From: Peteryoungia algae
GTDB lineage: Bacteria > Pseudomonadota > Alphaproteobacteria > Rhizobiales > Rhizobiaceae
NCBI RefSeq assembly: GCF_030369675.1
Contig: NZ_CP128477.1
Coordinates: 744,001-808,000 of the forward strand
Length of the DNA stretch: 64,000 nt
Direction: 5' to 3'
Of the stretch, positions 15,963-22,749 are shown piece by piece. The notes beneath the pieces were generated by a model. It ran no database searches, was not told the DNA's origin, and was given only the letters and a program-made list of their open reading frames with translations. How positions within the stretch are numbered: the stretch's first letter is position 1; the number at the start of each line of letters is the position of its first letter. A program made the translations under genes and the position numbers.

Positions 15963-16696
15963 CCGGTACACTCTATGGTCTCGGCCTTGGTCCAGGCGAT
16001 CCTGAGCTCTTGACGCTGAAGGCGCATCGCATTCTGACGCAATGCCCCGTCATTGCCTATCCGGCACCCGATACCGGTCCGAGCTTCGCCCGCCAGATCG
16101 CGGCCCCCTATCTGACCGCTGCCCAGCTGGAGGTCCCGATTGTCGTGCCGATGCGCGTCGAGCGCTTCCCAGCGCAGGACATCTACACGAAGGCGGCGGA
16201 GACGCTGTCGCATCATCTCGATGCCGGGTCCGATGTTGCCGTGCTCTGCGAGGGAGACCCCTTCTTTTACGGCTCGTTCATGTATCTCTTCGAGCGGCTT
16301 GCTGATCGATACCCGACGCAGGTCGTTCCGGGCGTTTCCTCAATGATGGCGGCCGCCGCCGGTCTCGGACGTCCGCTTGCTGCCCGCAATGACGTCCTGA
16401 CCGTTTTGCCCGGTCCGCTGCCGGATGACCAGCTGAAGGCCCGCATCGACGCCTCCGGTGCTGTTGCCATCATCAAGCTCGGCCGGCATTTCGCCCGCAT
16501 CCGCACGCTGATCGAAAGCCTGGGGCTGACGGCGCAAGCAGGTTATGCCGAGCGTGTCAGCCTTGCCGAAGAAAAGCTCACGCCGCTCTCCGAGGTCGCA
16601 GGCGACACAGCCCCCTATTTCTCGATGATCCTGATCTACAAGGGAGAGGAGCGCTGGCATCCGGCGCTCGCCAAGACCCTTGGAAGTGGGGCCTGA
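15959..16696 (+). CDS. cobI: Precorrin-2 C20-methyltransferase
   Basis: A 245-residue class III tetrapyrrole methylase: LYGLGLGPGDPELLTLKA at residues 5-22 binds SAM, with CEGDPFFYGSFMYLFERL near 97 and VVPGVSSMMAAAAGLGRPLA near 122. It methylates precorrin-2 at C20, committing it to corrin synthesis. Start ATG overlaps the cobL stop (ATGA), and its TGA overlaps the next ATG by one base. Length is the family norm (about 240). Confidence 0.96.
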   Translation: MTGTLYGLGLGPGDPELLTLKAHRILTQCPVIAYPAPDTGPSFARQIAAPYLTAAQLEVPIVVPMRVERFPAQDIYTKAAETLSHHLDAGSDVAVLCEGDPFFYGSFMYLFERLADRYPTQVVPGVSSMMAAAAGLGRPLAARNDVLTVLPGPLPDDQLKARIDASGAVAIIKLGRHFARIRTLIESLGLTAQAGYAERVSLAEEKLTPLSEVAGDTAPYFSMILIYKGEERWHPALAKTLGSGA

Positions 16697-18534
16697 TGGG
16701 TATCGAGGCCTCTCCCGGAATTCCGGTCGTTGTCGTTCTGACCGAGACCGCCGCACGGATCGGTCGTCGTGTCGCCTCGGAGATCTCAGGCGAACTGCAT
16801 GGCGCAGCCTCGCGCGTCACGTCGGCCGATCTGCACTTCGGCTCCGCGAAGGAGCATGTGCAAGCACTGTTCTCGGCCGGCCGGCCGATCGTTGCCGTCA
16901 TGGCTTCGGGCGCTCTCATCCGACTTCTCGCACCGCTCCTCTCCGACAAGCAGACAGAACCGCCGGTGCTGGCCGTTGCGGAAGACGGTTCCTGCGTTGT
17001 GCCCTTGCTTGGCGGCCACCACGGCGCCAATGATCTCGCGCGCAGCATCGCTGCAGCATTCGGCGCGCATGCTGCGATCACCACAGCGGGCGACCTCAAA
17101 TTCGGCGTAGCGCTCGATCAGCCGCCGGAGGGTTACGTGCTCGCCAATCCAGATGCCGCAAAGGCGGTGATGGCAGAGCTCGTGGCAGGCACCGGCGTCA
17201 GACTCGACGCATCATCCGCCACTTGGCTCACCCAATCCAGACTTTCATTTGAACAAGAGGCCCGCGTGACGCTCACCGTGACCGACCAACAGAAGACCGC
17301 CGGCGAGCTGGAGCTCGTCTATCATCCCAAGACGCTCGTGCTCGGTATGGGCTGCGAACGGCATGCCAAGCCCGAGGAAGCGATTGCGCTTGCCGAGGAA
17401 GCGCTGGCGAAGGGTGGCTTTGCGCGGGAAAGCCTAGCCGCAATCTGCTCGATCGACCTGAAGGCGGACGAAACGGCGCTTCATGCCGTCGCCGCCCATT
17501 TCGGCGTGCCGGCGCGGTTTTTCACGGCCGCCACACTCGAAGCTGAGGCGCCCCGTCTCGCGAACCCTTCCGAGGTGGTCTTCGCCGAAGTCGGTTGCCA
17601 TGGCGTTGCTGAAGGCGCGGCTTTGGCTGCCGTCGGACAGGCCGGGGCACTGGCGGTCGAAAAGATCAAGTCGAGGGGTGCCACAGCTGCGATCGCCCAG
17701 GCGCCTGATGTCGTCGATCCCAGGACGCTAGGGCGCGCACGTGGCACGCTCTTCGTGGTCGGGATCGGTCCCGGTTCGGATGACTGGCGGTCGCCGGAAG
17801 TGTCGCGCATGGTGTCATCCTCCACGGATCTCGTTGGCTATTCGCTGTATCTCGATCTGCTCGGGCCCTTGGGCGACGGCAAGGTCCGCCACGATTTCGA
17901 CCTGGGCAAGGAAGAGGCGCGCGTCGTCCATGCGATGGAACTGGCGGGGCAGGGCAGGACGGTGGCACTCGTCTGCTCTGGCGACGCCGGCATCTATGCG
18001 ATGGCGACGCTCGTTTTCGAACTCTTCGACAAGGGCGGCATCACGGATGGCGCGAACCGCATCGAAGTGCAGGTTTCGCCGGGAATCTCCGCACTTCAGG
18101 CCGCGGCCGCCCGCATCGGCGCGCCTCTTGGCCACGACTTCTGCACAATCTCGCTCTCGGACCTGCTGACCCCTTGGGAGCATATCCAGCGTCGGGTGAA
18201 GGCCGCAGGCGAGGGCGATTTCGTCATTGCCTTCTACAATCCCGTTTCGATGAAGCGCCGCACCCAGCTGGCCTATGCCCGCGACGAACTGTTGAAGTAC
18301 CGCCCGGCCACGACGCCAGTCATCCTGGCCACCAATCTCGGCCGCGAGGGCGAACATGTGCGCACCGTCCCGCTTGGTGAATTGAATGTCGACGATGTCG
18401 ACATGCTGACGGTCGTGGTCGTCGGATCCTCGGAAAGCCGGACGGTGACGACCGGTGACGGAAAGACCTGGGTCTACACACCGCGCGGCTATTCGGGCAA
18501 GGCAGACACTGGCATGAAGGGAAGTGAAGCATGA
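16696..18534 (+). CDS. cobJ: Fused CbiG-like protein and precorrin-3B C17-methyltransferase
   Basis: A 612-residue fusion. Residues about 10-135 resemble CbiG_N (FSAGRPIVAVMASGALIRLLAPLL, GGHHGANDLARSIA); about 210-335 form the CbiG_C/CobE domain (VLGMGCERHAKPEEAIALAEE, FAEVGCHGVAEGAALAA); about 345-600 are CobJ (LFVVGIGPGSDDWRSPEV, VCSGDAGIYAMA, VSPGISALQAAAARIGAPL, FYNPVSMKRRTQ). CobJ methylates C17 with ring contraction. In the anaerobic pathway CbiG opens the lactone; CobE-only proteins occur with the aerobic pathway. Overlaps cobI (1 base) and cobM (ATGA). Confidence 0.93.
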   Translation: MGIEASPGIPVVVVLTETAARIGRRVASEISGELHGAASRVTSADLHFGSAKEHVQALFSAGRPIVAVMASGALIRLLAPLLSDKQTEPPVLAVAEDGSCVVPLLGGHHGANDLARSIAAAFGAHAAITTAGDLKFGVALDQPPEGYVLANPDAAKAVMAELVAGTGVRLDASSATWLTQSRLSFEQEARVTLTVTDQQKTAGELELVYHPKTLVLGMGCERHAKPEEAIALAEEALAKGGFARESLAAICSIDLKADETALHAVAAHFGVPARFFTAATLEAEAPRLANPSEVVFAEVGCHGVAEGAALAAVGQAGALAVEKIKSRGATAAIAQAPDVVDPRTLGRARGTLFVVGIGPGSDDWRSPEVSRMVSSSTDLVGYSLYLDLLGPLGDGKVRHDFDLGKEEARVVHAMELAGQGRTVALVCSGDAGIYAMATLVFELFDKGGITDGANRIEVQVSPGISALQAAAARIGAPLGHDFCTISLSDLLTPWEHIQRRVKAAGEGDFVIAFYNPVSMKRRTQLAYARDELLKYRPATTPVILATNLGREGEHVRTVPLGELNVDDVDMLTVVVVGSSESRTVTTGDGKTWVYTPRGYSGKADTGMKGSEA

Positions 18535-19867: not shown

Positions 19868-20833
19868 ATGCATAAAGTCATTTTCGATACGGATCCCGGC
19901 GTCGACGACGCCATGGCGCTGCTCTTCCTGCACCACCATCCCGAGATCGACCTCCTCGGCATCACAACCGTCTTCGGCAATGCGGAGATCGACATCACGA
20001 CTCGCAATGCGCTGTACCTCAAGCGCGAGTGGAAGATCGATTCGCCAGTGGCCCGTGGTGCCGGCGAAACCTTCATCCCGCATCGTGTGAGCCACGAGCC
20101 GCCAAAATTCATCCATGGCGATGACGGTCTTGGCAATATCGGCGTGCCCGAAGTGACGGACGTCCATCCCGATCCGCGTCCGGCTCATCGCTTCATCGTC
20201 GATACGGTCCGCGCCAATCCGGGCGAAGTCACCATTGTCGCCGTCGGCCGCATGACCAATCTGGCCAATGCGCTGAAGGAAGATCCCGCGATTGTCGACC
20301 TCGTCAAGGAGATCGTCATCATGGGCGGCGCCTTCGACGTGAACGGCAATGTCACGCCGGCGGCAGAAGCCAATATCCACGGGGATCCGGAAGCGGCCGA
20401 CGTGGTGATGACGGCAAGGTGGCCGGTTGTCGTCGTCGGTCTCGACGTGACGATGCAGACGGTGATGACGCGTTCGCAGCTCGCCGATATCAGGGACGCT
20501 GCCGGCACCAGCCGGGCCCGTCTGCTCTTTGATCTCTCACAGTTCTATATCGATTTCTATGAGGGCCTGGTCGACGACGGCATGGTCGTGCACGACAGCT
20601 GCGCCTGCGTCTATGTCGTGGCGCCGGAGCTATTCAAGACCCGCAGCGGCGTCATTCGCGTTGTCTGCGGTGGCATCGCCGATGGCCAGACCATCCAGAA
20701 GCCTGACGGTCGTGGTTTTGGCCCTTCCGACTGGGATGGCGAGCTGCCAAGCCAGAAGATCTGCACCGAGATCGACGCGCCTGCCGTGCTCAAACTGATC
20801 CATGACGTGATCATAGCAGTCCGCGAAGACTGA
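19868..20833 (+). CDS. Nucleoside hydrolase (inosine-uridine preferring family)
   Basis: A 321-residue N-ribohydrolase that splits nucleosides into base and ribose. It has the Ca2+-binding family signature DTDPGVDDA at residues 7-15, VIMGGAFDVNGNVTPAAEAN near 145-164 (IMGG and N), and DPEAADVVM near 170. The frame opens at ATG 19832, but starting at 19868 puts the signature at the standard distance from the N-terminus. It reads into a strong bidirectional terminator. Confidence 0.93.
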   Translation: MHKVIFDTDPGVDDAMALLFLHHHPEIDLLGITTVFGNAEIDITTRNALYLKREWKIDSPVARGAGETFIPHRVSHEPPKFIHGDDGLGNIGVPEVTDVHPDPRPAHRFIVDTVRANPGEVTIVAVGRMTNLANALKEDPAIVDLVKEIVIMGGAFDVNGNVTPAAEANIHGDPEAADVVMTARWPVVVVGLDVTMQTVMTRSQLADIRDAAGTSRARLLFDLSQFYIDFYEGLVDDGMVVHDSCACVYVVAPELFKTRSGVIRVVCGGIADGQTIQKPDGRGFGPSDWDGELPSQKICTEIDAPAVLKLIHDVIIAVRED

Positions 20834-20856
20834 TCAGCGCCTTTCGGCGAACAAAG

Positions 20857-20892
20857 AAAAACCCCGGATCTGGGAGGAGATCCGGGGTTTTT
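20857..20892. terminator. Bidirectional terminator whose loop carries an anti-Shine-Dalgarno motif on the minus strand
   Basis: A 15-base perfect inverted repeat (AAAAACCCCGGATCT ... AGATCCGGGGTTTTT) with a six-base loop. It ends the nucleoside hydrolase transcript on the plus strand and the DUF1127 transcript on the minus strand. Read on the minus strand the apical region is CTCCTCCC, the motif of CcsR/cuckoo RNAs, so the DUF1127 3' end may also yield a cuckoo-type small RNA. Confidence 0.9.
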
Positions 20893-20921
20893 CTGTTTGA
20901 TCCGACCGTGGTCGGGACCGA

Positions 20922-21068
20922 TCAGCCGTTGACGGCGTGACGGGCAACGCGACGGATGTCTTCGCGGCCGATGCCGAGGTCATGCAGTTCGCGGTCCGAC
21001 ATGCGGCCGAGTTCCGTGATGGTCTGACGGTACTTGCGCCAGTTGGTGAGCGAGCGAGCAATGTTCAT
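20922..21068 (-). CDS. DUF1127 small protein (YjiS-like)
   Basis: A 48-residue protein, too short for most gene calls: MNIARSLTNWRKYRQTITEL, then GRMSDRELHDLGIGREDIRR and VARHAVNG. The arginine-rich helix and the pattern L..L.D.ELhDLGI.R.DI are diagnostic for DUF1127. A good ribosome site (AGAGG) lies 9 bases before the ATG. In Rhodobacter sphaeroides a DUF1127 protein (CcaF1) is an RNA-binding factor made from the same locus as anti-SD small RNAs; here too anti-SD hairpins flank the gene. Cytoplasmic. A TATATT -10-like element lies on the minus strand at 21134-21129. Confidence 0.9.
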   Translation of the reverse strand: MNIARSLTNWRKYRQTITELGRMSDRELHDLGIGREDIRRVARHAVNG

Positions 21069-21330
21069 TGGGTCTACCTCTTTGGTGGTTTGGACCCATC
21101 CGTGGGCCCCTTCGAATTTCTTGAGGTGAATATATGCTGCGTTGCGAAATGTTTGAAGACATAATGCGGCAGATCACCTATGCGCCGCGCGCATAACGCT
21201 CGATTTAACCCGTTGTTAACTGGCGATTTTTTGTGCGTTTGCCTCAGGCTGCGTCGTGCACTGCATTTGGGCAGCTCAAGGCGCCTGGGTGCGGGATCTA
21301 TTCGGCGGGGAGGATCAGGTCAAAAAAATA

Positions 21331-21475
21331 ACGCTCACCGGGGGAGGAGGTCCGGTGAGCGTCATTTGTGCAGACCAACGACTGGGAGGAGGAGTGTCGT
21401 TGGTCAATCGAGCCCGCATTGGGAGGAGGTAACGCGGGTCGAAGAAGAAGCGCCAGAAGTTCTGTCGCTCTGTTG
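21331..21475 (-). ncRNA. Cuckoo-type (CcsR-like) small RNA array: three anti-SD hairpins and terminator
   Basis: Three stem-loops stand in a row: 21413-21438, 21373-21405 (10-base perfect stem) and 21331-21362 (10-base stem). Read on the minus strand each loop contains CCTCCTCCC, complementary to Shine-Dalgarno sequences. The last hairpin is followed on the minus strand by TTATTTTTTT, a good intrinsic terminator, which fixes the orientation. A TATATT box at 21487-21482 (minus strand) is a possible -10, putting the 5' end near 21475. The DUF1127 gene follows on the same strand. This matches the published cuckoo/CcsR RNA architecture. Confidence 0.8.
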
Positions 21476-21481
21476 AGAATG

Positions 21482-21510
21482 AATATAGGCGAGACCTGTC
21501 GGTTTGTGCA
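21482..21510 (-). promoter_or_regulatory. Possible promoter of the cuckoo RNA
   Basis: On the minus strand TATATT (21487-21482) lies about 45 bases before the first hairpin. No good sigma-70 -35 is found at 16-18 bases (the hexamer there is TGCACA), and no clear RpoH or EcfG -35 element is visible, so only the -10 is suggested. The DUF1127 gene has the same TATATTCA string upstream. Confidence 0.35.
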
Positions 21511-21639
21511 GTGCAATATTGACATGGAAGGCATGCGTTTCTGCATGGGCGCAGAAGCCATCGGTCCGGGTGATTTCCACCGCTTGTCTTTCCGTGGTGC
21601 TCGTTCCAGATTGCAGGCGGGATCAAAGGGGAGCAGCCC

Positions 21640-22749
21640 ATGTACAGAGGCAGGTTGAAACGCGATTTGGACGACTGGGTCGCGCGCGGACTGATCGATA
21701 AAGCGACGGCAGCAAGGCTGCTGGCAGATGTCGATCGCCGCCGCGCTGGCTTCAGCATAGGCGGCATCCTGTCGATGTTTGCGGCTGTCCTGATCGCCGC
21801 ATCGCTCCTCATGCTGATAGCCGCCAACTGGGAGGCGATACCGAGAATAACCAAGGTTGTCGGGATCATCGCCCTGATCTGGATTTTTCATGGGGCGGCG
21901 CTGCTTGCACGATCCAGGGGCGCAGATCGGTTGGCTGCCGCAGCGCTCGTTCTCGGCTCCGCAGCCTTCGGCGGCGCGATTGCGCTCATCGGACAACTCT
22001 ATCATCTCTCGGGCGACACCTTCTCGGCGATGCTGCTCTGGTTCACGGTAACGGTCGGCTCCGCGCTGGTCTTTCGCTCCGGCGCACTGACTGTCGTTTC
22101 CGGCGCCCTTTTACTGGTTGCCTTCGGGAGCGGCTTTGAAAATTTGGGCTGGGAGGCCGATGGCCATGGCCTATGGGCCTATTGGCCACCTTTCGGCGCA
22201 GCAGCCGTCCTTGCCCTGTCCCGCTTGAACGGCACCGATCGGGCAAAGCATTTTGCCTATATCCTGCTCGTCGGCTGGATCTGGTGGATCCTCATTCTCG
22301 ACCGGGACGAAGCCTATGCCTTCACTGTGGCAGTCGTCGCAACGATCTTGTTTCTCGCGCTTGTCGCGCCGCGCTCGCCGCTCGAGGCGATCCATCGGAA
22401 GCTGGGCACCTCCGCCAGCTTCTATAGTCTGGTGATGGCGCTCACGGGTTTCGCCTATGTGCAAGGCAATGCGCTCGACGTCCTGTCGACGGCGGCTCTC
22501 GGGATCGCGATCCTCGCCTTGTCGATTGCTGCGATCGCGCTTGAAGGTCGCGACAATGGGGCTGTGCGTTATCTCGCCTATGGGGCCTTCGCTGCGGAGG
22601 TCCTCTACCTGTCCTATGAGACGATTGACAGCATTCTCGGAACCTCGGCCTTCTTCCTGCTCTCGGGCCTGGTTGTTGCCGTGCTGGCCTTCATCGTGGT
22701 CCGTCTTGAAAAACGCTTCTCCCGCTCGACCGTGGAGGTGATGTCATGA
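21640..22749 (+). CDS. DUF2157 multi-pass membrane protein
   Basis: A 369-residue inner-membrane protein of the DUF2157 family: a cytoplasmic N-terminal helix-rich region (LKRDLDDWVARGLIDKATAARLL) followed by about ten hydrophobic segments from residue 45 on, starting SIGGILSMFAAVLIAASLLMLIAANW in two parts. Good ribosome site GGGGAGCAGCCC before the ATG. It overlaps the next gene by four bases; DUF2157 and GDYXXLXY proteins commonly occur as a pair. Function unknown. Confidence 0.85.
   Translation: MYRGRLKRDLDDWVARGLIDKATAARLLADVDRRRAGFSIGGILSMFAAVLIAASLLMLIAANWEAIPRITKVVGIIALIWIFHGAALLARSRGADRLAAAALVLGSAAFGGAIALIGQLYHLSGDTFSAMLLWFTVTVGSALVFRSGALTVVSGALLLVAFGSGFENLGWEADGHGLWAYWPPFGAAAVLALSRLNGTDRAKHFAYILLVGWIWWILILDRDEAYAFTVAVVATILFLALVAPRSPLEAIHRKLGTSASFYSLVMALTGFAYVQGNALDVLSTAALGIAILALSIAAIALEGRDNGAVRYLAYGAFAAEVLYLSYETIDSILGTSAFFLLSGLVVAVLAFIVVRLEKRFSRSTVEVMS

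Follow-up and report, generated by a model that had tools for sequence, protein, structure and literature searches.

The stretch of Peteryoungia algae DNA analysed here (64,000 nucleotides, referred to as the window) carries a tandem array of anti-Shine-Dalgarno hairpins followed on the same strand by a short DUF1127 gene, which raises the question of whether the pair is transcribed and processed as one operon or consists of separate genes under a common control. A precedent for the first arrangement exists, since CcsR-like sRNAs with short DUF1127 genes have already been published as the ‘CIN1 locus’; in Rhodobacter sphaeroides, ccaF1 is reported to precede the sRNAs in one transcript that is driven by an RpoHI/RpoHII promoter and cut by RNase E (PMC10253847). 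The evidence below, read from sequence, makes it probable that the two are adjacent genes with their own promoters and terminators, co-regulated by a LysR activator of the LsrB/VtlR kind.

The array adds a new member to the described alpha-r14/cuckoo/NfeR1 sRNA family. The Rfam covariance model RF02344 (ar14) matched the minus strand at 21326-21447, the extent of the whole sRNA, with 103.7 bits (E 1.9e-19) against a gathering score of 58.8, which upheld the cuckoo-family membership proposed in an earlier sequence-only reading of this DNA. Membership of the CcsR1 family (RF02791) was rejected at 31.5 bits against a gathering score of 65.3, and matches in the locus to ohsC, 6C, the Thr leader and further Rfam models were set aside as they lay below their gathering scores. 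The 64 kb window has three copies of the motif CCTCCTCCC, on the minus strand only (21342-21350, 21384-21392 and 21421-21429); this bare count was rejected as evidence because three or more copies were reached in 7 of 100 shuffles of the window. In the predicted fold of 21326-21447 (-57.6 kcal/mol), all three copies fall in the loops of stems. Hairpin 1 (21408-21442, minus strand) and hairpin 2 (21373-21405, minus strand) present CCUCCUCCC in their loops, as supported by the fold, the stem comparison and the ar14 match, and hairpin 3 with its T tract (21326-21367, minus strand) would form the end of the sRNA, the ar14 match also ending at 21326. All three motif-bearing stem-loops of the sequence-only reading were present, hairpins 1 and 3 being longer in the fold than it had given them, and the T tract that it took to terminate the array was seen after the third stem. 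This terminator-like hairpin, with a loop of 10, was missed by a simple terminator scan with a loop limit of 8. The whole minus-strand frame running across the array (21298-22005) had no Pfam match.

The array stems vary in sequence yet keep their pairing across relatives. Among 49 distinct loci, which comprised 40, 38 and 19 different left arms for hairpins 1, 2 and 3, for each hairpin, left arms paired better with the right arms of their own locus than with those of other loci (mean stem scores of 11.7 vs 6.7, 17.0 vs 10.6 and 28.3 vs 21.3, respectively, the between-loci control taking no account of relatedness). Stems were compared by an ungapped rule, which found only one or two pairs in a few loci; because the loci were selected by the loop motif, only the stems are informative in this comparison. 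Three CCUCCUCCC hairpins on variable stems are likewise described for NfeR1, the alpha-r14 sRNA of Sinorhizobium meliloti, in which the three motifs are reported to be redundant and the loops to pair with Shine-Dalgarno regions and repress translation (PMC10746234). The CcsR hairpins have been placed in a shared family with alpha-r14 (PMC3927594).

The DUF1127 gene was found as the sequence-only reading had it, an open reading frame for a 48-aa protein at 20922-21068 on the minus strand (PF06568, 59.3 bits), and the array does lie upstream of it on the same strand (21326-21447 vs 20922-21068). CcaF1 of R. sphaeroides, a protein of 71 aa, is reported to bind RNA (PMC10253847), and for short DUF1127 proteins of Agrobacterium, binding to the kinase PhoR has been reported (PMC12501420); by analogy, the 48-aa protein may bind RNA or a kinase, both of which we regard as candidate roles. 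Between its stop codon and its terminator there is a small hairpin (CCGAC/GTCGG, 20902-20915) that is kept in nine close relatives, with a G-U pair in one of them.

Two promoter-like sites, both on the minus strand, were found in 20750-21650, compared with a mean of 0.4 in shuffled sequences. The first (21482-21514) consists of a GCACTGCA block and TATATT, with the promoter-like arrangement TGCACA-17-TATATT at 21510-21482, and would start the array RNA near 21475. The second (21129-21157; TTCAAA-17-TATATT) lies before the DUF1127 gene, whose RNA is predicted to start near 21122. Both coincide with conserved blocks when relatives are aligned (59 distinct rows for the array promoter, 29 of them printed, and 57 for the DUF1127 promoter, 23 of them printed). 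Upstream of each core promoter on the minus strand stands a dyad, ATGC-N6-GCAT before the array (21533-21546) and ATGC-N7-GCAT before DUF1127 (21180-21194). Read onward, the DUF1127 dyad is GCATAGGTGATCT, an exact fit to GCAT-N3-TG-N3-T, while the array dyad is GCATGCCTTCCAT, with one mismatch to it. The bare form ATGC-N7-GCAT occurs 3 times in the window against 2.0 expected, and because it is this common by chance, the weight of the dyads rests on their place and conservation. The longer form ATGC-N7-GCATRGG has seven matches in the genome, among which only that of the DUF1127 locus was followed; the six other sites are L122 and L124-L128.

These dyads resemble published sites of one regulator. 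In S. meliloti, LsrB is reported to bind and activate the nfeR1 promoter at TGCA-N6-GCAT (PMC10746234), which equals TGC-N7-GCA followed by T. The nfeR1 box is given at about -72 to -57, upstream of the core promoter, and the box of the window array lies at about -71 to -58 from its inferred start, one base shorter between its halves. VtlR is described as the LsrB orthologue of Brucella and Agrobacterium, with GCAT-N3-TG-N3-T as its proposed box; atu1667, a small-protein gene of A. tumefaciens orthologous to BAB1_0914 and BAB2_0512, is reported as a direct VtlR target (PMC7486931), and three DUF1127 genes together with AbcR2 are reported to be under VtlR control in Brucella (PMC12595884). Such VtlR/LsrB-activated genes (atu1667, BAB1_0914 and others) have in common with the window gene a product of 47-48 aa and GCAT-N3-TG-N3-T upstream (PMC7486931, PMC12595884).

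Both dyads hold their place in relatives. Identical sequences were counted once in the dyad counts, as in the stem and tree counts and the promoter alignments, and related sequences inflate all such measures of conservation. Of 60 distinct array promoters, 39 had ATGC-N7-GCAT beginning 33 nt before GCACTGCA, and wherever dyad and GCACTGCA occurred within 150 nt of each other (43 co-occurrences) they shared one offset. The remaining array promoters had TGC-N7-GCA (2/60), the N6 spacing (2/60, the window and L034), GCACTGCA without the dyad (7/60) or no exact GCACTGCA (10/60); in three of the last ten (L060, L092 and L114) the core has a single mismatch and the dyad lies at -33 from it. Given its N6 spacing, LsrB control of the window array may be weak or lost in this copy. 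Of 83 distinct regions upstream of DUF1127, 68 had the exact dyad 105-150 nt ahead of the gene, namely 58 of 60 with an array upstream (two or more CCTCCTCCC within 700 nt upstream) and 10 of 23 without one; it was missing from 2 and 13 of these, respectively. GCAT-N3-TG-N3-T fits 53 of the 68 dyad-bearing regions. Most of the seven inner bases of the DUF1127 dyad are nearly free and RGGTG is conserved after GCAT; the apparent invariance of its outer bases follows from the restriction to exact matches.

A candidate for the regulator is encoded elsewhere in the genome. A match to RF00519 marks an AbcR-like sRNA (L159, C1:1512127-1512205) directly preceded by a LysR gene, which in turn is preceded by an oxidoreductase fragment, so that the order is as described for trxB, vtlR and abcR1 (PMC7486931). 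Judged by this gene order alone, the LysR protein would be LsrB/VtlR. The exact VtlR consensus GCATGCCTGACAT lies upstream of the AbcR-like sRNA; the same upstream DNA also has CGCATGCCT and CACTGCACAA in common with the array promoter. Control of an sRNA and of small-protein genes by one regulator is what has been described for VtlR in Agrobacterium and Brucella (PMC7486931, PMC12595884), except that the sRNA there is AbcR, encoded at another place, and here alpha-r14 lies next door.

Since both promoters bear a like control site, array and DUF1127 are probably switched on together, and we infer that they are two adjacent LsrB/VtlR targets and not one processed operon. The first gene would yield an alpha-r14 (cuckoo/NfeR1-type) sRNA of about 120-150 nt, whose three CCUCCUCCC loops, as in NfeR1, would silence several mRNAs by pairing with their Shine-Dalgarno regions, and the second would yield the 48-aa DUF1127 protein from its own promoter. 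A LysR activator of the LsrB/VtlR kind would turn on both through the dyads upstream of the core promoters. By analogy, nfeR1-type silencing with LsrB activation and atu1667-type activation by VtlR would both hold here; the LysR protein that acts on the two promoters is proposed from gene order.

One further element had been claimed for this pair, a fourth cuckoo hairpin at the 3' end of the DUF1127 gene. The terminator hairpin at 20857-20892 (minus strand) is supported by fold and sequence as a real terminator, with CTCCTCCC at its tip. Of the nine bases of the motif, CTCCTCCC (20872-20879) comprises eight; two of these are paired in the fold, leaving CCUCCC alone unpaired. The hairpin is terminator-like on the plus strand too, and the simple terminator scan listed the plus-strand site and lacked the minus-strand reading. 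The ar14 model gave 23.6 bits here, below the cut-off. Nine distinct loci, all from one group, showed the CTCCTCCC tip, and 8 more loci with a like stem have other tips; on the tree, the tip requires at least three changes, with 9 of 18 inner branches open. The remaining terminators in a listing of 110 loci have other stems (identical sequences were not merged in this listing, no DUF1127 frame was found by rule in L025, L103 and L117-L120, and the wrong frame was taken in L023 and L043). In L014-L030, many DUF1127 terminators have CCTCCC in the stem and not in the loop.

We regard the CTCCTCCC tip as a trait of a single group. As a conserved cuckoo element the fourth hairpin was not accepted, with 8 of 9 motif bases, six of them unpaired, and 8 like-stem loci that lack the tip. 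A module in which one LysR regulator commands an anti-Shine-Dalgarno sRNA and DUF1127 through twin boxes, and in which the mRNA of one group adds a fourth hairpin with the same targets, is a tentative extension of the two-gene reading. That the tip works as a fourth anti-Shine-Dalgarno hairpin and gives rise to a 3' UTR-derived sRNA we find doubtful. The hairpin is identical in the nine distinct loci, while average identity is 67% in the spacer from array to dyad and 81% downstream of the terminator, which speaks for such a role; these loci were, however, selected by the motif itself, sister loci differ at the tip of the same stem, the minimum of three changes is drawn on a weak tree, and only CCUCCC is free to pair.

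It is also rather unlikely that array and gene are linked without shared control, as stress genes that are neighbours by descent and whose dyads serve different regulators. In favour of such unshared control, the dyad has the general LysR-type form and is frequent by chance, and the window copy has the N6 spacing. On the other hand, a like dyad occurs at fixed places in both promoters of most loci, and binding of LsrB/VtlR has been published for both promoter kinds in relatives (PMC10746234, PMC7486931). The genome (one contig of 4,398,809 bases) has a second ar14 match above the cut-off besides the window array, at C1:3373605-3373730 (L001 1501-1626; 113.3 bits), which adjoins a phosphoglucomutase-type gene and has a different promoter. 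No ATGC-N6..8-GCAT was found in the 400 nt upstream of this copy and no DUF1127 gene beside it; the missing dyad counts against the co-regulated reading, and this copy was left out of the argument from the twin promoters. Also in the window, a 612-aa frame (16696-18534) joins N- and C-terminal parts of CbiG to a tetrapyrrole methylase and resembles fused cobalamin genes.

How the pair is arranged in relatives bears on the remaining alternatives. A tool-drawn sample of 40 genomes of the genus contained ar14 in 40/40 and DUF1127 in 40/40, with 122 arrays above the cut-off (from 145 ar14 hits). Among the DUF1127 matches listed, which extend to 45.3 bits, the gene lay downstream of 39 of the 122 arrays on the same strand at a gap of 227-525 nt, one in each of 39 genomes; the exception among these matches, G016, is an incomplete genome. 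On the same basis, DUF1127 lay upstream of 18 arrays (11 genomes; gap 215-292 nt) and on the opposite strand beside none of the 122. At most 65 arrays had no listed DUF1127 match inside 3000 nt, an upper bound because matches were listed only down to 45.3 bits. A second tool-drawn sample covered 41 genomes of Rhizobiaceae, one per genus including that of the window; ar14 was found in 40/41, with 110 arrays above the cut-off (from 125 ar14 hits). Counting DUF1127 matches of at least 46.5 bits, 53 of the 110 arrays (31 genomes) followed the gene at 28-445 nt, 23 of these 53 at only 28-42 nt, and 12 arrays (10 genomes, that of the window included) preceded it at 169-624 nt; one array had DUF1127 on the opposite strand and 44 had none of these matches inside 1500 nt. 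Some arrays left out of the family count as below the cut-off also adjoin DUF1127 (e.g. in G072, G040 and G061). The search of other Rhizobiaceae that the sequence-only reading had called for thus found the arrangement: array-first order in 39 of 40 genus genomes and, family-wide, DUF1127 ahead of the array in 53 of the 65 pairs linked on the same strand, so that array-first is the rule of the genus and a minority in the family. In two genera (G058, G063) the coordinates show array and DUF1127 alternating as a chain, from which both gene orders may derive. In L121, L099 and L115, six to eight CCTCCTCCC copies stand before one DUF1127 gene, spaced like at least two tandem arrays.

An operon of the CcsR/CcaF1 type, the parallel on which the sequence-only reading had drawn, did not fare well and appears improbable; in it, a single transcript would be processed into sRNAs and an mRNA, with the hairpins bound and matured by the protein. 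The partners are the same as in the R. sphaeroides locus, where a short DUF1127 gene is also linked to CCUCCUCCC hairpins (PMC10253847); they share a strand and a conserved linkage, CcaF1 is described as an RNA binder in that source, and the short distance of 28-42 nt from DUF1127 to the array in other genera would suit one transcript. In the window, however, the order is reversed relative to CcaF1-CcsR1-4, a terminator-like hairpin with its T tract closes the array, a second, conserved promoter-like site with its conserved dyad stands between array and gene, and the CcsR1 model stays below its cut-off. Least probable is that the array serves as a leader, with the sRNA as its terminated form and read-through past the last hairpin giving the DUF1127 mRNA, since the conserved same-strand order and gap in 39 of 40 genus genomes (among the matches listed) are offset by a promoter-like block of DUF1127's own and by the dyad, which also precedes 10 of the 23 DUF1127 genes that lack an upstream array.

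We therefore retain the reading of two adjacent genes under a common LsrB/VtlR-type activator. One family would thus show two wirings of the same pair, with the gene first and close, or with the array first and a second promoter. Among six open-licence papers that name at least two of NfeR1, DUF1127 and LsrB, none names NfeR1 together with DUF1127; LsrB/VtlR has been linked with NfeR1 in one organism and, in separate work on others, with short DUF1127-type genes (PMC10746234, PMC12595884, PMC7486931). Beyond the described sRNA family and gene kind, what would probably be new is LsrB/VtlR-type control common to both members of an adjacent pair. The locus is also relevant to how DUF1127 proteins work, in the service of these sRNAs or by way of kinases such as PhoR (PMC12501420), and since both kinds of target are kept as neighbours with like boxes throughout the genus, their joint control is directly testable.
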